In this document: piece by piece, positions 2,844-20,334 of the stretch | Layout of the letters: every line of letters starts with the position of its first letter | How positions within the stretch are numbered: position 1 is the stretch's first letter | Origin: a virus | Virus record (IMG/VR): IMGVR_UViG_3300025879_000039 | Location: 1-42,181 of that record | Reading direction: 5' to 3' (one strand) | Length of the DNA: 42,181 bases | Program-made: the position numbers and the translations under genes | Notes under the pieces: generated by a model | What the model saw: only the letters and a program-made list of their open reading frames with translations | Told to the model about the DNA's origin: nothing | The model's database searches: none

Positions 2844-2972
2844 TTACTCTTTTTGCCTAAGTAGTTCAGAAGCTTTTTGTATGTCATTATCGTAGGTTAA
2901 CATATTCCAAACTAACCACTCACCTTTTTGGGTTCTAAAATCTGGTTCTTTATTTACTTTATTTTGTTCCAT
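2844..2972 (-). CDS. Hypothetical peptide, 42 aa
   Basis: ATG 2970-2972 to TAA 2844-2846. It encodes a hydrophilic peptide with KGEWLVWNMLTYDNDIQKAS and a charged C-terminal helix. It lies between the 127-aa coiled-coil gene and the small membrane gene, same strand, with short gaps. No family is recognised. Confidence 0.45.
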   Translation of the reverse strand: MEQNKVNKEPDFRTQKGEWLVWNMLTYDNDIQKASELLRQKE

Positions 2973-3010
2973 AATTAAATTTTTATTATTTATACAACCA
3001 CATTAAAACG

Positions 3011-3394
3011 TTAGCAAACATTATTCAAATAATCACAGTACATTTTTGCCTGTTCTTCGCTATGCATAAAGAAAACTACTTCTAAACCTTTGCCATCGAG
3101 TACTGCCTTACCTTGTTTTCTACCAACCCTAAAAGGCGGTGTATATTTGTTAGCATCATAACGTTTCACAACATCGGTTATAGTTAATTTCTTTTCAAGT
3201 GCTTCTATATAGCCTTTTAATTTATTGCTTTCGTTTTCAAGTTCTCTAACCTTACTTATAACTGAATTTAATTGCTCTTTATGATATATTTTTGCATAAG
3301 CCTTTATATCTGCTTTGTGGCATCTAAAAAAATGTTTGTCATCACTATCAACTAGGCTCATTATTTTATCTAAAAACTTTTCACTTTCTGTCAT
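3011..3394 (-). CDS. Coiled-coil hypothetical protein, 127 aa
   Basis: A 127-aa protein with a helical N-terminus, a central coiled coil at about residues 46-72 (KVRELENESNKLKGYIEALE) and a C-terminal alpha/beta part ending YCDYLNNVC. The coiled-coil segment is nearly identical, in protein and DNA, to one in the 8449-8694 gene, while the rest differs. Its start ATG overlaps the stop of the upstream 3391-3696 gene (ATGA). Function unknown. Confidence 0.6.
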   Translation of the reverse strand: MTESEKFLDKIMSLVDSDDKHFFRCHKADIKAYAKIYHKEQLNSVISKVRELENESNKLKGYIEALEKKLTITDVVKRYDANKYTPPFRVGRKQGKAVLDGKGLEVVFFMHSEEQAKMYCDYLNNVC

Positions 3395-3997: not shown

Positions 3998-4221
3998 ACA
4001 TCTAAATCTAAGTTGTTATCAATTAGTAATTCATTTAATTTATGTCTACACTCCTCAAATGCATCATAAACTTCTTGTGACCTTTCATCTGGGAAATACT
4101 TAACCTGTCCTCTTAACCATTGTTTCATGCCCCATAATGTACTAAACATTTTAGATGCATCACTGGCCATTTGGTATTCGGTTTGATCTTCCGGTAAATT
4201 AAATTCTAGTATTGCTTTCAC
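3994..4221 (-). CDS. Hypothetical helical protein, 75 aa
   Basis: A 75-aa mostly helical protein. The start (MKAILEFNLPEDQTEYQMAS) and the rest (SKMFSTLWGMKQWLRGQVKY) follow a pattern often seen in phage genes annotated only as hypothetical (MKAxLEFNLPEDxxEF). It is the first gene of the overlapping set 4221-3011. The leader repeats a 16-nt sequence also found before the zinc-ribbon gene (sense ACACCAAAGAGA at about 4223-4238 and 2205-2220). Confidence 0.6.
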   Translation of the reverse strand: MKAILEFNLPEDQTEYQMASDASKMFSTLWGMKQWLRGQVKYFPDERSQEVYDAFEECRHKLNELLIDNNLDLDV

Positions 4222-4284
4222 ATCTCTTTGGTGTTAAAGTTTAAAAATAAGTCTACTACATGTTTTATTCTATAAAAGAATCTT

Positions 4285-4575
4285 TTAATTCTTTAATATT
4301 ATATCCCAATAGCATATTTTTGTTTCATACCTTCTCAGTTTAATAATATAACAATCTTCAAATTCTACTTGTTTGTTTTTTAAAAAATTATTTTGGTGTC
4401 ATATTTCTAATATATTTCCGTTACTTGTTAATTTACCAAATTTTCCATCAGTAACCACAGAACCGTTTGAGAATATAGTATCTAAACCATAGACCTTTCT
4501 AATACCTGCATTTATTATATCTTCATTGTTATGGATATGACCGAACATCATAAATTTGGGTTTAACTATTTTTCA
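4285..4575 (-). pseudogene. C-terminal remnant of the phosphoesterase gene
   Basis: The stretch 4399-4575 is a diverged copy of the 3' end of the phosphoesterase gene at 5208-5891. It still encodes MMFGHIHNNED, then YGLDTIFSNGSVVTD, and ends at a TGA (4399-4401) about two codons early; the same frame then stays open to TAA 4285-4287. The first two thirds of the gene, with most metal ligands, are absent, so it cannot be an active enzyme. The homology begins at the stop codon of the 4577-4906 gene, where the two copies share ATGAATAAAT, a likely recombination joint. A 50-aa peptide from ATG 4549-4551 could still be made. Confidence 0.75.
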
Positions 4576-8448: not shown

Positions 8449-8694
8449 CTATAATTTGCTTAGGTATTTATCAACATTAGCTTCAATGTGTTTTAAATCA
8501 ACATCGTGTATTCCTTTGTAAAAGTCAATATTATAAGCAATTAACAGTTCACGTTGTTGGCTAACATCTTTTATAGTTAATTTCTTTTCAAGTGCTTCTA
8601 TATAGCTTTTTAGTTTAATACTTTCGTTTTCAAGTTCTCTAACTCTAACAATAACTTCTTCCCATTCTGTATCTGTAATCGTGTATTTTTTCAT
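8449..8694 (-). CDS. Coiled-coil hypothetical protein, 81 aa
   Basis: An 81-aa protein whose residues 17-50 form a coiled coil (RVRELENESIKLKSYIEALE) almost identical to the one in the 3011-3394 gene, including at DNA level, while the C-terminus (IDFYKGIHDVDLKHIEANVD) differs. It is the first gene after a strong-looking TATATTTA promoter 22 nt upstream. Function unknown. Confidence 0.6.
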   Translation of the reverse strand: MKKYTITDTEWEEVIVRVRELENESIKLKSYIEALEKKLTIKDVSQQRELLIAYNIDFYKGIHDVDLKHIEANVDKYLSKL

Positions 8695-8715
8695 TGTTTT
8701 ATTTATTAATATACC

Positions 8716-8746
8716 TAAATATACGAAAAAAAGCCTGCCAAAGTAA
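8716..8746 (-). promoter_or_regulatory. Predicted promoter, TATATTTA element
   Basis: Minus-strand CG-TATATTTA (8723-8716) is the same -7 element as at the other sites. The -33 position holds TTA (8746-8744) rather than TTG, and a TTTG lies 15 nt upstream. It drives the 8449-8694 gene, 22 nt downstream. Confidence 0.6.
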
Positions 8747-8754
8747 GCTTTTTA

Positions 8755-8859
8755 TTAATTAAAATTTACATTATTACAGTATTTACATGTGTAGTACGAA
8801 ACACTACCTGAGTTAAATTCTGTAGATATATTACCGCATTTACAGAGTTGGGTTTTCAT
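8755..8859 (-). CDS. Zinc-knuckle peptide, 34 aa
   Basis: ATG 8857-8859 to TAA 8755-8757. The peptide has LCKCGN near the N-terminus and TCKYCNN near the C-terminus, i.e. CxC and CxxC pairs about 16 residues apart, a minimal zinc ribbon. It follows the tRNA-Gln gene by 15 nt and ends just before the next promoter. Small, but the cysteine pattern makes chance coding unlikely. Confidence 0.5.
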   Translation of the reverse strand: MKTQLCKCGNISTEFNSGSVSYYTCKYCNNVNFN

Positions 8860-8874
8860 AGTTAATTATTTTAG

Positions 8875-8946
8875 TTGTCCCACAAGGACTCGAACCTTGA
8901 ATGCCGGTACCAAAAACCGGTGTGTTACCAATTACACCATGGGACA
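8875..8946 (-). tRNA. tRNA-Gln (anticodon TTG)
   Basis: A complete cloverleaf reads on the minus strand: acceptor TGTCCCA/TGGGACA, D-stem GTGT/ACAC with AATTGGTA loop, anticodon stem CCGGT/ACCGG with loop TTTTGGT (anticodon TTG), T-arm CAAGG-TTCGAGT-CCTTG and discriminator A. The CCA end is not encoded. It decodes CAA, which suits the AT-rich codon use of this phage. It lies directly downstream of the structured RNA region. Confidence 0.93.
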
Positions 8947-9238
8947 TTACTGTAGGCGACCGGGAAAAGCCCAATCCTTAATCCCATGAAGGAACATATA
9001 TCCACAATGTGGACCTACATATAGAGAGGTTTCGGGTCTTTCAAGGTTACTGACTAAGCCTGATTTTACCTATACCTACTGTTAACCTTTTTTCAGTATA
9101 GTCACCTTTATCAGTGGTGTGCTCGTTACAGCTTCACTACCTCTCTCTTAATAAGCGATCCAACCACTTTACACCTGCAAGTGCAAGAGGTTGAGGAGCT
9201 AATTGCATGCACAACCTAGTTGGATCTATTTATAATAT
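8947..9238 (-). ncRNA. Structured non-coding RNA region, two closed domains
   Basis: No reading frame is present in this interval. On the minus strand one domain is closed by the perfect 8-bp pair GATCCAAC (9226-9219) / GTTGGATC (9164-9157) and contains AGGTTG/CAACCT and TTGCAC/GTGTAA arms, a three-way junction of 70 nt. A second is closed by AGAGAGGT (9146-9139) / ACCTCTCT (9030-9023); inside it AAGGTTA/TAACCTT (7 bp) and TGACTA/TAGTCA (6 bp) cross, so a pseudoknot is possible. A TCCAC/GTGGA hairpin and GC-rich sequence follow up to tRNA-Gln. GC content is visibly above the neighbours. The family is not recognised; the size and the tRNA neighbours recall large phage ncRNAs such as GOLLD, without sequence proof. 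Confidence 0.65.
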
Positions 9239-9352
9239 AAAAAAACTAGATGTGTTATAGGCCGAGGTTCAAAAACCCCATACTATACAAAGCACGATTC
9301 TTATTTGTAACCCAAACGCGCCCAGGTGCCGATGCAACGCCATCTAGCTTTT
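9239..9352 (-). ncRNA. Discrete ~110-nt ncRNA with own promoter and terminator
   Basis: Transcription from the promoter at 9360-9390 should begin near 9350. The sequence then opens at once with AAAAGCTAGATG, which pairs with CATCTAGTTTTT at its far end (stem core 9347-9341 with 9252-9246; 12 pairs with one G-U), followed by a T7 run at 9245-9239 that would serve as terminator. Inside lies a 6-bp hairpin GGGGTT-TTTG-AACCTC and G-rich sequence. No open frame of note. Promoter, closing stem and U-tract together mark out a self-contained small RNA. I do not recognise it as tRNA, tmRNA, 6S or RNase P RNA. Confidence 0.65.
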
Positions 9353-9359
9353 GTATACT

Positions 9360-9390
9360 TAAATATACGAAATATATCTCGCATATCCAA
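9360..9390 (-). promoter_or_regulatory. Predicted promoter for the ncRNA cluster
   Basis: Minus strand: TTG (9390-9388), 20 nt, then TATATTTA (9367-9360), with CG just before the -7 box. The TTG is part of TTTG. It lies between tRNA-Ser and the ncRNA and points into the ncRNA, with no protein gene for 500 nt downstream. Confidence 0.75.
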
Positions 9391-9409
9391 ACTTTTTAGA
9401 TACTTTTTG

Positions 9410-9494
9410 CGGAAGATGAGGGATTCGAACCCCCGGACCTGTTACAGTCAACAGTTTTCAAGACTGCCGCATTCGACCACTCTGCCAATCTTCC
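9410..9494 (-). tRNA. tRNA-Ser (anticodon TGA)
   Basis: A class II tRNA on the minus strand: acceptor GGAAGAT/ATCTTCC, D-arm with GCAGAGTGGTCGAATGC, anticodon stem GCAGT/ACTGT with loop CTTGAAA (anticodon TGA), a long variable arm (TGACTGTAACAGGTC) typical of tRNA-Ser, T-arm GGGGGTTCGAATCCCTC, discriminator G. CCA is not fully encoded. It decodes UCA. It begins 7 nt after the queC stop codon, so it is probably co-transcribed with queC and cut from the mRNA. Confidence 0.93.
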
Positions 9495-9501
9495 TACCTT
9501 T

Positions 9502-10323
9502 TTAAGCTACGTAATCAGCTAATACTTTCTCTACTGCAGCTCTTGCTACATCATAAGATACAGGTCCTGTTTCGTCTTCGTATTGAACTGGATCTTTACG
9601 TCCTAGTTTAATAAATGCTTCAATACGTTCTACTGAAGAAGCTGATTTGTAATCTGAGTTACCTGATGGATAAGGTTTATAGGACGTATTAGTTCTTTTA
9701 TAGACTTCATCAAAATCTAATCCAAGTTCTTCACATAATTTTTCACCATCCTGTAAAATAGTAAATTTATCTCCTTCTAAATAAGGTGTAAAATAACCTA
9801 CTCTATCAGCGTCCCAGTTACCCATTCTAAAAGCTGCATCATCTGCATCTCTGAATTCTTGTCTACAGTCAGGGTAAACGGCATGATCACCAGAATGGAT
9901 ACCTAAAGCGATATCACAAGTTTCTTCTGTTCTATTTGCAACTGATAATGCAACGGCTTGAGTAATAGAAGCGAACATCTTGTTTCTGTTAGGAACAACT
10001 GTTTCTTTCATATTATCTTGCTCATAATGTCCTTCTGGTACATCATCTCCACCATCAACTAATGCTGAATCTAATAAATCTACTAGTCCATCTAATTTAA
10101 TTTGACGATAATTTACCGTACACCCATTAAAACAATTTTCATCTGAGGGGCAGTTTTTATTAATATAATCTACTAATGATTGAGCTCTCTCTAACTCTAC
10201 TCTGTGTTTTTGACCATAATCGAATGAGATAGCTGTTACAGAATCGTATTCTGATAATGCTCTTAATAATAATGTTGAGGAATCCATCCCTCCTGATAAG
10301 GATACTACTACATGTTTTGCCAT
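9502..10323 (-). CDS. queC: QueC-like 7-cyano-7-deazaguanine synthase
   Basis: A 273-aa member of the QueC ATP-PPi family, which converts carboxy-deazaguanine to preQ0. The PP-loop SGGMDS is at residues 10-15, followed by the family motifs [20 protein letters not shown] and [16 protein letters not shown]. The C-terminal zinc site, normally C-x(8)-C-x2-C-x2-C, is altered: TNTSYKPYP and [13 protein letters not shown] have Ser or other residues in place of all four cysteines. A separate insert, [11 protein letters not shown] near residue 57, carries three new cysteines. In phages QueC often supplies deazaguanine for DNA modification that evades restriction; no partner gene (queD, queE, folE, dpdA) is in this window. 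A tRNA-Ser follows at once. Confidence 0.85.
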
Positions 10324-19521: not shown

Positions 19522-20334
19522 TTATTCGTTAAATAGATCATCAAATTTAGTAACTGTATCTTTTTTACCAGCCGTAGCTGTTTCTAAAGTAAAGTCTGCT
19601 TTTTGTTGACCTAAGCTTTCTGGCAATTTATCATCTGCAGGTTGTGTTTTTGCAGGGGTATTATTCTCCTCCGCTGCTGCTGTGGGATCTAAATAATTCT
19701 GTAACTGTTTTTTAATAAAATCGTAATCATACTGAGTATGTACTTCTACTGGGTCTGGTTGAGTTTTTAACCAACTATCAACTAAATCGTTATTATCAGA
19801 TAAAGGTGTTTGTTTTGGTTTAATACGAACAGTAGTTTCAGGGTAAGGATTACCTTGCTGCTGCTCTACTACCATATCCCATCCGTTTACTACATCGGTA
19901 AAGTCTCCGATATCCTCATCTTCTGCTAAAGCAAGTAATGCTTTATAGATGGTTACTCCGAATCCCCATAATCTAACTCCTTTATCTTCTTCTCCTCTTA
20001 CTACTACAGGAGCAAAGATTCTAGTTTTAGGTGAGATTTTTCCAGATAATGACCAATTATCTTTATCACTAGTTTTACGAAGCTCTTTTACGAATTCTTC
20101 GATAGGATCTTGTTTACCAAAATTTGATAAAGCAACCATCGGATATTTACCGATACCGTAGTGGAATTTTAATTCTTTAAATGGAAAAGTAGGATAAAAA
20201 GCCGATGGTACGATACGTACTGTTTGCTTACCTAATTGTGGTTTCCAGAAGATTTTTGAGTAGTCAGTTTTCTCTTTTTCTTGACCGTTGTTGTTCAGCG
20301 CGTCTAATTTAGCGCGGATAGCATTAATGTCCAT
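19522..20334 (-). CDS. Single-stranded DNA-binding protein, gp32-like
   Basis: A 270-aa T4 gp32-type SSB. The N-terminus MDINAIRAKLDALNNNGQEK is the usual cooperative-binding arm, the core has YSKIFWKPQLGKQTVRIVPS, and the acidic C-terminal tail ends KDTVTKFDDLFNE, used to recruit replication partners. I place the start at ATG 20332-20334. A longer frame to 20394 would begin with a TTG that is in fact the -33 box of the promoter, and the -7 box would then be inside the gene. The zinc finger of T4 gp32 is not seen. Confidence 0.9.
   Translation of the reverse strand: MDINAIRAKLDALNNNGQEKEKTDYSKIFWKPQLGKQTVRIVPSAFYPTFPFKELKFHYGIGKYPMVALSNFGKQDPIEEFVKELRKTSDKDNWSLSGKISPKTRIFAPVVVRGEEDKGVRLWGFGVTIYKALLALAEDEDIGDFTDVVNGWDMVVEQQQGNPYPETTVRIKPKQTPLSDNNDLVDSWLKTQPDPVEVHTQYDYDFIKKQLQNYLDPTAAAEENNTPAKTQPADDKLPESLGQQKADFTLETATAGKKDTVTKFDDLFNE

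Follow-up and report, generated by a model that had tools for sequence, protein, structure and literature searches.

The window analyzed here is a virus record of 42,181 nt of DNA whose tail sheath protein is 64% identical to its counterpart in Flavobacterium phage immuto. Along its minus strand lie queC, a tRNA-Ser gene, an RNA element that we call R1, a second structured region, and a tRNA-Gln gene. The features of this locus are collected in Table 1. The first-pass annotation had described R1 as a discrete small RNA with its own promoter, a closing stem, and a U-tract, located in a region free of open reading frames (ORFs). The closing stem is present as described. A search for minus-strand ORFs of at least 40 amino acids inside the R1 region found none, as had also been claimed, and the length differences between R1 members are not multiples of three; R1 was therefore rejected as a protein-coding sequence. 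The fold of the region beat 200 of 200 shuffles (z = -3.5). The promoter and the closing stem exceed chance, and the finding in the window is real.

Table 1. Features at and around R1 in the window, with positions as numbered in the window
Feature	Positions	Strand	Description
R1 RNA (feature under study)	9352-9241	minus	about 105-112 nt, three-way junction
tRNA-Ser (UGA)	9494-9409	minus	upstream of R1; ARAGORN, Rfam
tRNA-Gln (UUG)	8946-8874	minus	downstream of R1; ARAGORN, Rfam
Promoter, recurrent phage type	9391-9360	minus	TTTGG 9391-9387, TTCGTATATTTA 9371-9360
Promoter-class copies in window	9391-9360, 6915-6879 (core 6894), 8725-8710	minus	
P1 closing stem, 5' strand	9352-9341	minus	AAAAGCTAGATG; 12 pairs with the 3' strand, one G-U; 10/10 counted pairs changed on both sides, 16 members
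P1 closing stem, 3' strand	9252-9241	minus	CATCTAGTTTTT; last five U belong to the U7 run
P2, 5' strand	9335-9329	minus	pairs with 9297-9292; 92.6% of cells paired, 4/6 pairs changed on both sides
P3 hairpin	9327-9310	minus	ACC 9327-9325, 12-nt loop UGGGCGCGUUUG 9324-9313, GGU 9312-9310
Conserved 12-nt bulge	9309-9298	minus	UACAnnUAAGAA; invariant in alignment A2
P4-P5 arm	9287-9256	minus	UAUAG 9287-9283 with CUAUA 9260-9256; hairpin GGUUUUUGAACC 9277-9266
tRNA-like three-way junction	9226-9157	minus	closed by GATCCAAC/GTTGGATC, between R1 and R2
R2 RNA	9148-9019	minus	conserved, pseudoknotted, separate from R1; 33 distinct members aligned
M3, third conserved element	9019-8951	minus	65-70 nt; UCCUU...AAGGAUUGG...GGUCGCCU, directly before tRNA-Gln

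The promoter that had been proposed, TTG at 9390-9388 followed after 20 nt by TATATTTA at 9367-9360 on the minus strand, was found to be present. The R1 copy of the window sits on TTGG-N17-TTCGTATATTTA, and P1 begins 7 nt behind the promoter element. The loose pattern TTTG-N18-21-TAnnTTT[GA] is not significant on its own, with two minus-strand matches versus about 1.2 expected. The exact element CGTATATTTA[AG]GTATA has three perfect copies in the window, all on the minus strand. Across 81 loci (L003-L083, some of which are near copies of one another), the core CGTATATTT[AG] was found 49 times on the queC strand versus 0 times on the opposite strand; first-order Markov simulations place the chance level at 0-3. 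T[TA]GG lies at offset -21 in 32 of 40 distinct promoter sites, and the R1 promoter carries TTGG at exactly -21. For the class as a whole, the next ATG follows at a median of 24 nt. This sequence evidence points to a promoter belonging to R1 itself, a conclusion confined to the window copy. The promoter class, composed of an A-tract, TTGG, N17, and TTCGTATATTTA, is usable for annotation of Flavobacteriia phages.

The 3' end of the window copy is less clear-cut. The U-tract of the first-pass annotation exists as a run of seven U at 9245-9239, five of which form the base of the closing stem. A scan of 8690-9520 called no intrinsic terminator, leaving U7 unsupported as the terminator of the window copy. 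The description as a discrete small RNA thus held up for the structured RNA, its putative promoter, and its covarying stem (see below), and it did not hold up for the terminator of this copy.

The first relatives of R1 came from blastn and nhmmer comparisons of loci that had been collected for a different purpose (L125/L179, 91%; L163; L107; and L177, in which the copy is truncated). A scan with GGTTACANNTAAGAATCG then gave 14 stretches, two of which (L189 and L192) look like chance and had no model match. When the loop was left free at 6-16 nt, a second scan returned 56 stretches, which were kept if their flanks fold alike. Two further, looser pattern scans produced no new member accepted by the covariance model, the best match being L251 (20 bits, E 0.12), which was excluded. 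All excluded pattern matches (L189, L192, L196-L206, L208-L211, L213-L217, L219, L220, L223-L239, L241-L244, and L245-L262) had either no model match or marginal ones, with E values of 0.12 to 0.93. L194 and L179 were omitted because they nearly duplicate L190 and L125, and L177 is cut by the contig end and resembles L107. By this comparison, R1 is a conserved RNA family with 16 distinct members in IMG/VR virus contigs: the window, L125, L163, L107, L187, L188, L190, L191, L193, L195, L207, L212, L218, L221, L222, and L240. Roughly half of these belong to a single phage group that shares one gene order, and the members are therefore not independent. The trimmed units are 97-115 nt long, and each of the 19 carrier records (near copies included) has a single copy. 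The model matches the window at 9350-9243 with 83.1 bits, the window being one of the 16 model sequences. L207 (61.7 bits) and L221 (69.1 bits) fit the model less well, and no convincing P1 is present in L212.

R1 was found only in virus contigs. A scan of genome_contigs for bacterial copies gave four pattern matches, none of which was confirmed by the model. Among cultivated phages, blastn searches of 50,697 phage records with the R1 copies of L240 and L163 returned chance-level matches only, and the R1 model had no match in 11 named phage records, an empty result that, having no positive control, shows little. Rfam includes families covering tRNA, transfer-messenger RNA (tmRNA), 6S, RNase P, riboswitches, ribozymes, GOLLD, ROOL, and OLE, and R1 matches none of them. 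At the gathering threshold, Rfam searches returned only the two tRNAs from the window and only tRNAs and one group I intron from the other loci. With E values up to 10, the region 8690-9520 gave the two tRNAs plus sub-threshold matches, none overlapping R1 as a whole. With E values up to 5, L218 gave no match and L240 gave only seven sub-threshold matches, six on the plus strand at 989-1088 and one on the opposite strand; those at 989-1088 fall on the 3' part and the following terminator. The Rfam search proposed in the first-pass annotation accordingly yielded no family match to R1, and its statement that R1 shows no tRNA, tmRNA, 6S, or RNase P pattern is borne out by both ARAGORN and Rfam. 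Because R1 has no Rfam match, Rfam-based annotation would miss it. No published description of R1 was found in the open-licence literature, which misses most subscription journals.

A five-helix structure was written by comparison on the MAFFT alignment A2. It consists of the closing stem P1, an arm P2-P3 with a conserved 12-nt bulge, and an arm P4-P5. The structure comprises 31 pairs and 467 cells, 85.2% of which are paired; 23 pairs and 67 cells are changed on both sides. The covariation score of 0.395 compares with a shuffle mean of 0.181 (0 of 500 shuffles reach 0.395) and with at most 0.112 for slid partners, over which the structure is favored in part because it was drawn from the same sequences. 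RNAalifold, applied independently to the first alignment, predicted 21 pairs, and both sides are changed in 13 of these. Covariation of the closing stem among relatives had been set as a test by the first-pass annotation, and every counted P1 pair was found to be compensatory. The P1 letters swap while pairing is kept: CUAGAUG/CAUCUAG in the window, UUGAAUG/CAUUCAA in L125, CUGAAUA/UAUUCAG in L218, and AACAAU/AUUGUU in L207. Just 73.8% of P1 cells are paired, the outer pairs failing in several members. In P4, both partners are changed in 6 of 9 pairs. Within R1, the L125 and window sequences share 91% identity, yet their P1 letters and flanks differ, which indicates that P1 marks the boundary of the unit. 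The invariance of CACC, GGUUACA, and UAAGAAU is no evidence, because the search patterns fixed these letters, and the conservation of the bulge and of P3 is partly circular for the same reason, the patterns fixing parts of both. The 12-nt bulge is likely a binding or folding core. Taken together, the comparison shows the predicted R1 fold.

P3 has the form ACC-loop-GGU (CCC-loop-GGU in L195), with a loop of 12 nt in the window and L125 and of 8 nt in the other 14 members. In 16 of 16 members, representing nine distinct loops, the loop is self-complementary around its center over at least 6 nt. The palindromes are CUGCAG, CUCGAG, UUCGAA, AUGCAU, and CUUAAG and, when G-U pairs are counted, the whole 12-mers UGGGCGCGUUUG and UGGGCUAGUUUG. 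There are five distinct central tetranucleotides (UGCA, UCGA, UUAA, CGCG, and CUAG), all of which are palindromes. A palindromic center is expected by chance in about 5.7% of loops of the same composition, and the loop letters were left unconstrained by the patterns that yielded the members. The comparison thus shows that the predicted P3 loop is self-complementary. Because adjacent loop bases cannot pair within one strand, pairing between two molecules is the natural reading. The palindrome demonstrates a capacity to pair and suggests that R1 may form a loop-loop homodimer in the cell.

The genomic places of R1 are diverse, as judged from gene names assigned by reading translations by eye and not by family searches. 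Three of the 16 members (the window, L125, and L107) lie inside tRNA arrays proper, with the L125 copy between two tRNAs. In L163, R1 lies behind the apparent end of queC and before R2. R1 is found between SSB-like and T7-like primase-helicase genes in L187, L188, L190, L193, L222, and L240; it also precedes that primase in L195, with an HNH-like gene between, and in L191, where the upstream genes fall outside the reading. Elsewhere it lies between head-morphogenesis-like and prohead protease-like genes (L218), beside tail-like genes (L221), behind GroEL/GroES-like genes (L212), or near a ribonucleotide reductase gene (L207). No single gene class follows all copies, as tRNAs, primase, prohead protease, tail, and other genes lie behind them. 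Because these contexts are unrelated, R1 is not the leader of one gene. A queC or deazaguanine riboswitch was rejected, as most members are far from queC, and the specific link to deazaguanine or tRNA biology that had been suggested earlier found no support, since just 4 of 16 members are in or beside tRNA arrays or queC-type genes. Among named phages, the L188 primase has a relative in Cellulophaga phage phi10:1 (44%) and the L218 capsid has one in Flavobacterium phage 11b (69%), and the carriers of R1 appear to infect Flavobacteria-type bacteria. In L193 and L222, a further hairpin-rich stretch (AAAGC ... GGACAGCUUU) lies directly 5' of R1 and differs from the one in L187 and L188, which suggests stacked RNA elements.

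R1 has conserved neighbors in the window. R2 is composed of AGUGAAGCUG ... AAGGGUU ... CAGUAACCCCGAAAGACCCGAAAC and is widespread, occurring both inside and outside tRNA arrays; its carriers include the window, L005, L010, L024, L084, L104, L125, and L163. The pattern ACCNNGAAAGACCCGAAA gave 103 stretches, many with a matching 5' half and an adjacent tRNA-like sequence and others plainly chance matches in coding sequence. From these and the queC loci, we aligned 33 distinct, complete copies with a matching outer stem. Two helices and a pseudoknot are kept in 91.9% of cells, and the pseudoknot pair at the single variable position is G-C, A-U, G-U, or U-A. Rfam had no match to R2 at the gathering threshold in the loci tried and none at E values up to 10 in the window. 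The R2 model matches the cultivated Cellulophaga phage phi14:2 with 51 bits. R2 is present in 8 of the 19 R1 records and lies within 1.5 kb of R1 in 5 of 16 members (the window, L163, L107, L125, and L191, the last a weak partial match). The letters of R2 may resemble the region of 23S rRNA around A2058.

Several variants of R2 were noted. In L286 (phi14:2, 4050-4450; read by eye) and L287 (phi10:1, 2850-3300), the halves are permuted, with GAAAGACCCGAAA first and AGUGAAGCUG behind, and are closed by the former outer stem; permutation of halves is known among ribozymes. An extra hairpin stands between CCCUG and AAAGACC in L191 (about 250-370) and in L288 (immuto, 20050-20330). In L092, L130, and L143, R2 variants with UUAAAGCUG are nested in a further conserved frame (AGGCAGGAG ... 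CUUGUACUGCCGAG). The tRNA array of L104, which carries R2, contains a group I intron (Rfam RF00028) at 2063-2259 on the minus strand. M3 is common to L003 (the cultivated immuto), L021, L160, L161, L331, L343, and L346. No relatives of the junction at 9226-9157 were seen among the loci compared.

We favor, with some reserve, the reading that R1 is a discrete, noncoding phage RNA with a three-way junction that forms a kissing dimer and acts in trans. Transcription of the window copy would start at its own phage promoter, and its 3' end could arise from weak termination at U7 or from cleavage of the tRNA-array transcript during processing. An intrinsic terminator comes directly after R1 in many of the relatives located outside tRNA arrays: in 8 of 16 members, versus 17 of 960 random windows, one begins no more than 8 nt behind P1. 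We infer that two copies of this discrete transcript likely join through their P3 loops in the cell. The dimerization loop of HIV is a precedent for such a kissing dimer. The R1 dimer would then probably present two UACAnnUAAGAA bulges to a host or phage partner, which could be a protein, the ribosome, or RNA polymerase, and R1 would act in trans as a structural RNA. In a wider formulation, to which we give an even chance, R1 would represent an undescribed class of small phage RNAs: an RNA-only homodimer whose kissing loop resembles the DIS. Unrelated phages that probably infect Flavobacteriia would carry it as a movable cassette, sometimes next to R2, itself undescribed, and both would belong to an RNA tool kit produced in the tRNA array.

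The main rival, and an unlikely one, is that R1 is a cis-acting antiterminator or attenuator RNA that controls readthrough of a terminator into the genes behind it. Of the eight members in which a terminator closely follows P1, seven belong to one phage group. Seven members have a terminator within 8 nt followed by the primase-helicase gene, so that in one phage group R1 and its terminator occupy an attenuator-like place shortly before that gene, and R1 is on the same strand as the upstream gene in the contexts read. Cis control would suit the primase context but not the tRNA arrays. Moreover, no terminator was found directly behind R1 in the window, L125, L163, L107, L193, L207, L212, or L218; the genes downstream are unrelated; the window copy lies at a promoter and is not followed by any protein gene until 8694; and cis control would have no need of a palindromic loop.

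Alternatively, R1 might act as a self-cleaving ribozyme and trim polycistronic transcripts at sites between tRNAs or between genes, which we consider improbable. Phage ribozymes are known from scattered intergenic places such as those of R1, and a compact junction with a purine-rich, highly conserved bulge, as well as the L125 copy between two tRNAs, would be compatible with this activity. However, no Rfam ribozyme matched at E values up to 10 in the window or up to 5 in L240 and L218, P1 is fully variable and nothing outside P1 is conserved, and the terminators directly behind some members would make cleavage superfluous there. It is very improbable that R1 serves as a stability or RNase-stop element guarding the 3' end of an upstream mRNA or of tRNA precursors. 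R1 often follows closely behind a stop codon (e.g., in L218, L190, and L240), and a terminator follows in half of the members, but the conserved bulge and palindromic loop exceed the needs of a simple block, and the window copy, directly behind its promoter, has no upstream message of that promoter to protect. A chance inverted repeat in AT-rich phage DNA, to which the AU-rich stem and the failed terminator call in the window copy might point, is hardly credible and was ruled out, because the compensatory changes are far above those of shuffles and slid controls and the blastn and nhmmer matches in other phages preceded any model building.

The presence of R1 in unrelated phage gene orders implies that it probably meets some general need, either against Flavobacteriia-type hosts or within them. 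The phage RNA homomers solved in PMC12286853 are large. At about 110 nt, with a loop that changes yet is always palindromic, R1 offers a small and readily produced system in which to test RNA-only dimers in infection.

Several known RNAs resemble R1 in part. T4 RNAs C and D are small, stable RNAs of orphan function from a tRNA gene cluster; like R1 they are small RNAs made with phage tRNAs, although the phages differ and the likeness is one of description. The prohead RNA of phi29 oligomerizes through loops, as predicted for R1, and is part of the packaging motor, whereas most R1 copies are not beside packaging genes. The HIV-1 DIS has a short stem and a loop with a variable palindromic hexamer flanked by purines. 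It resembles P3 of R1 in its short stem and palindromic loop, but it pairs two genomic RNAs, whereas R1 is a small element that stands by itself in the DNA of phages. Natural RNA homomers are described as rarely observed in PMC12286853, in which multimers of OLE and GOLLD are demonstrated by cryo-electron microscopy (cryo-EM) and mass photometry and in which the palindromic-loop argument is applied to both RNAs. OLE dimerizes via kissing loop L9.3, which has a covarying palindromic tetranucleotide, and the homodimer evidence is of the same kind as that for R1 (PMC12286853); OLE is a large bacterial RNA, whereas R1 was detected in virus contigs only. GOLLD and ROOL are, like R1, phage encoded, of orphan function, often near tRNA arrays, and endowed with symmetric kissing loops, and a GOLLD kissing loop has a covarying palindrome (PMC12286853), as does the P3 loop of R1. 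R1 would share with them the symmetric loop-loop contact backed by covarying palindromes. They are several hundred nucleotides long, make many contacts, and assemble into 14- and 8-mers by cryo-EM (PMC12286853), whereas R1, with about 110 nt and one predicted contact, has neither their size nor their multiple contacts, and its multimer is predicted from sequence. We therefore regard R1 as a phage-encoded, predicted homo-oligomeric RNA that is far smaller than the known ones and has no detected sequence relation to them.
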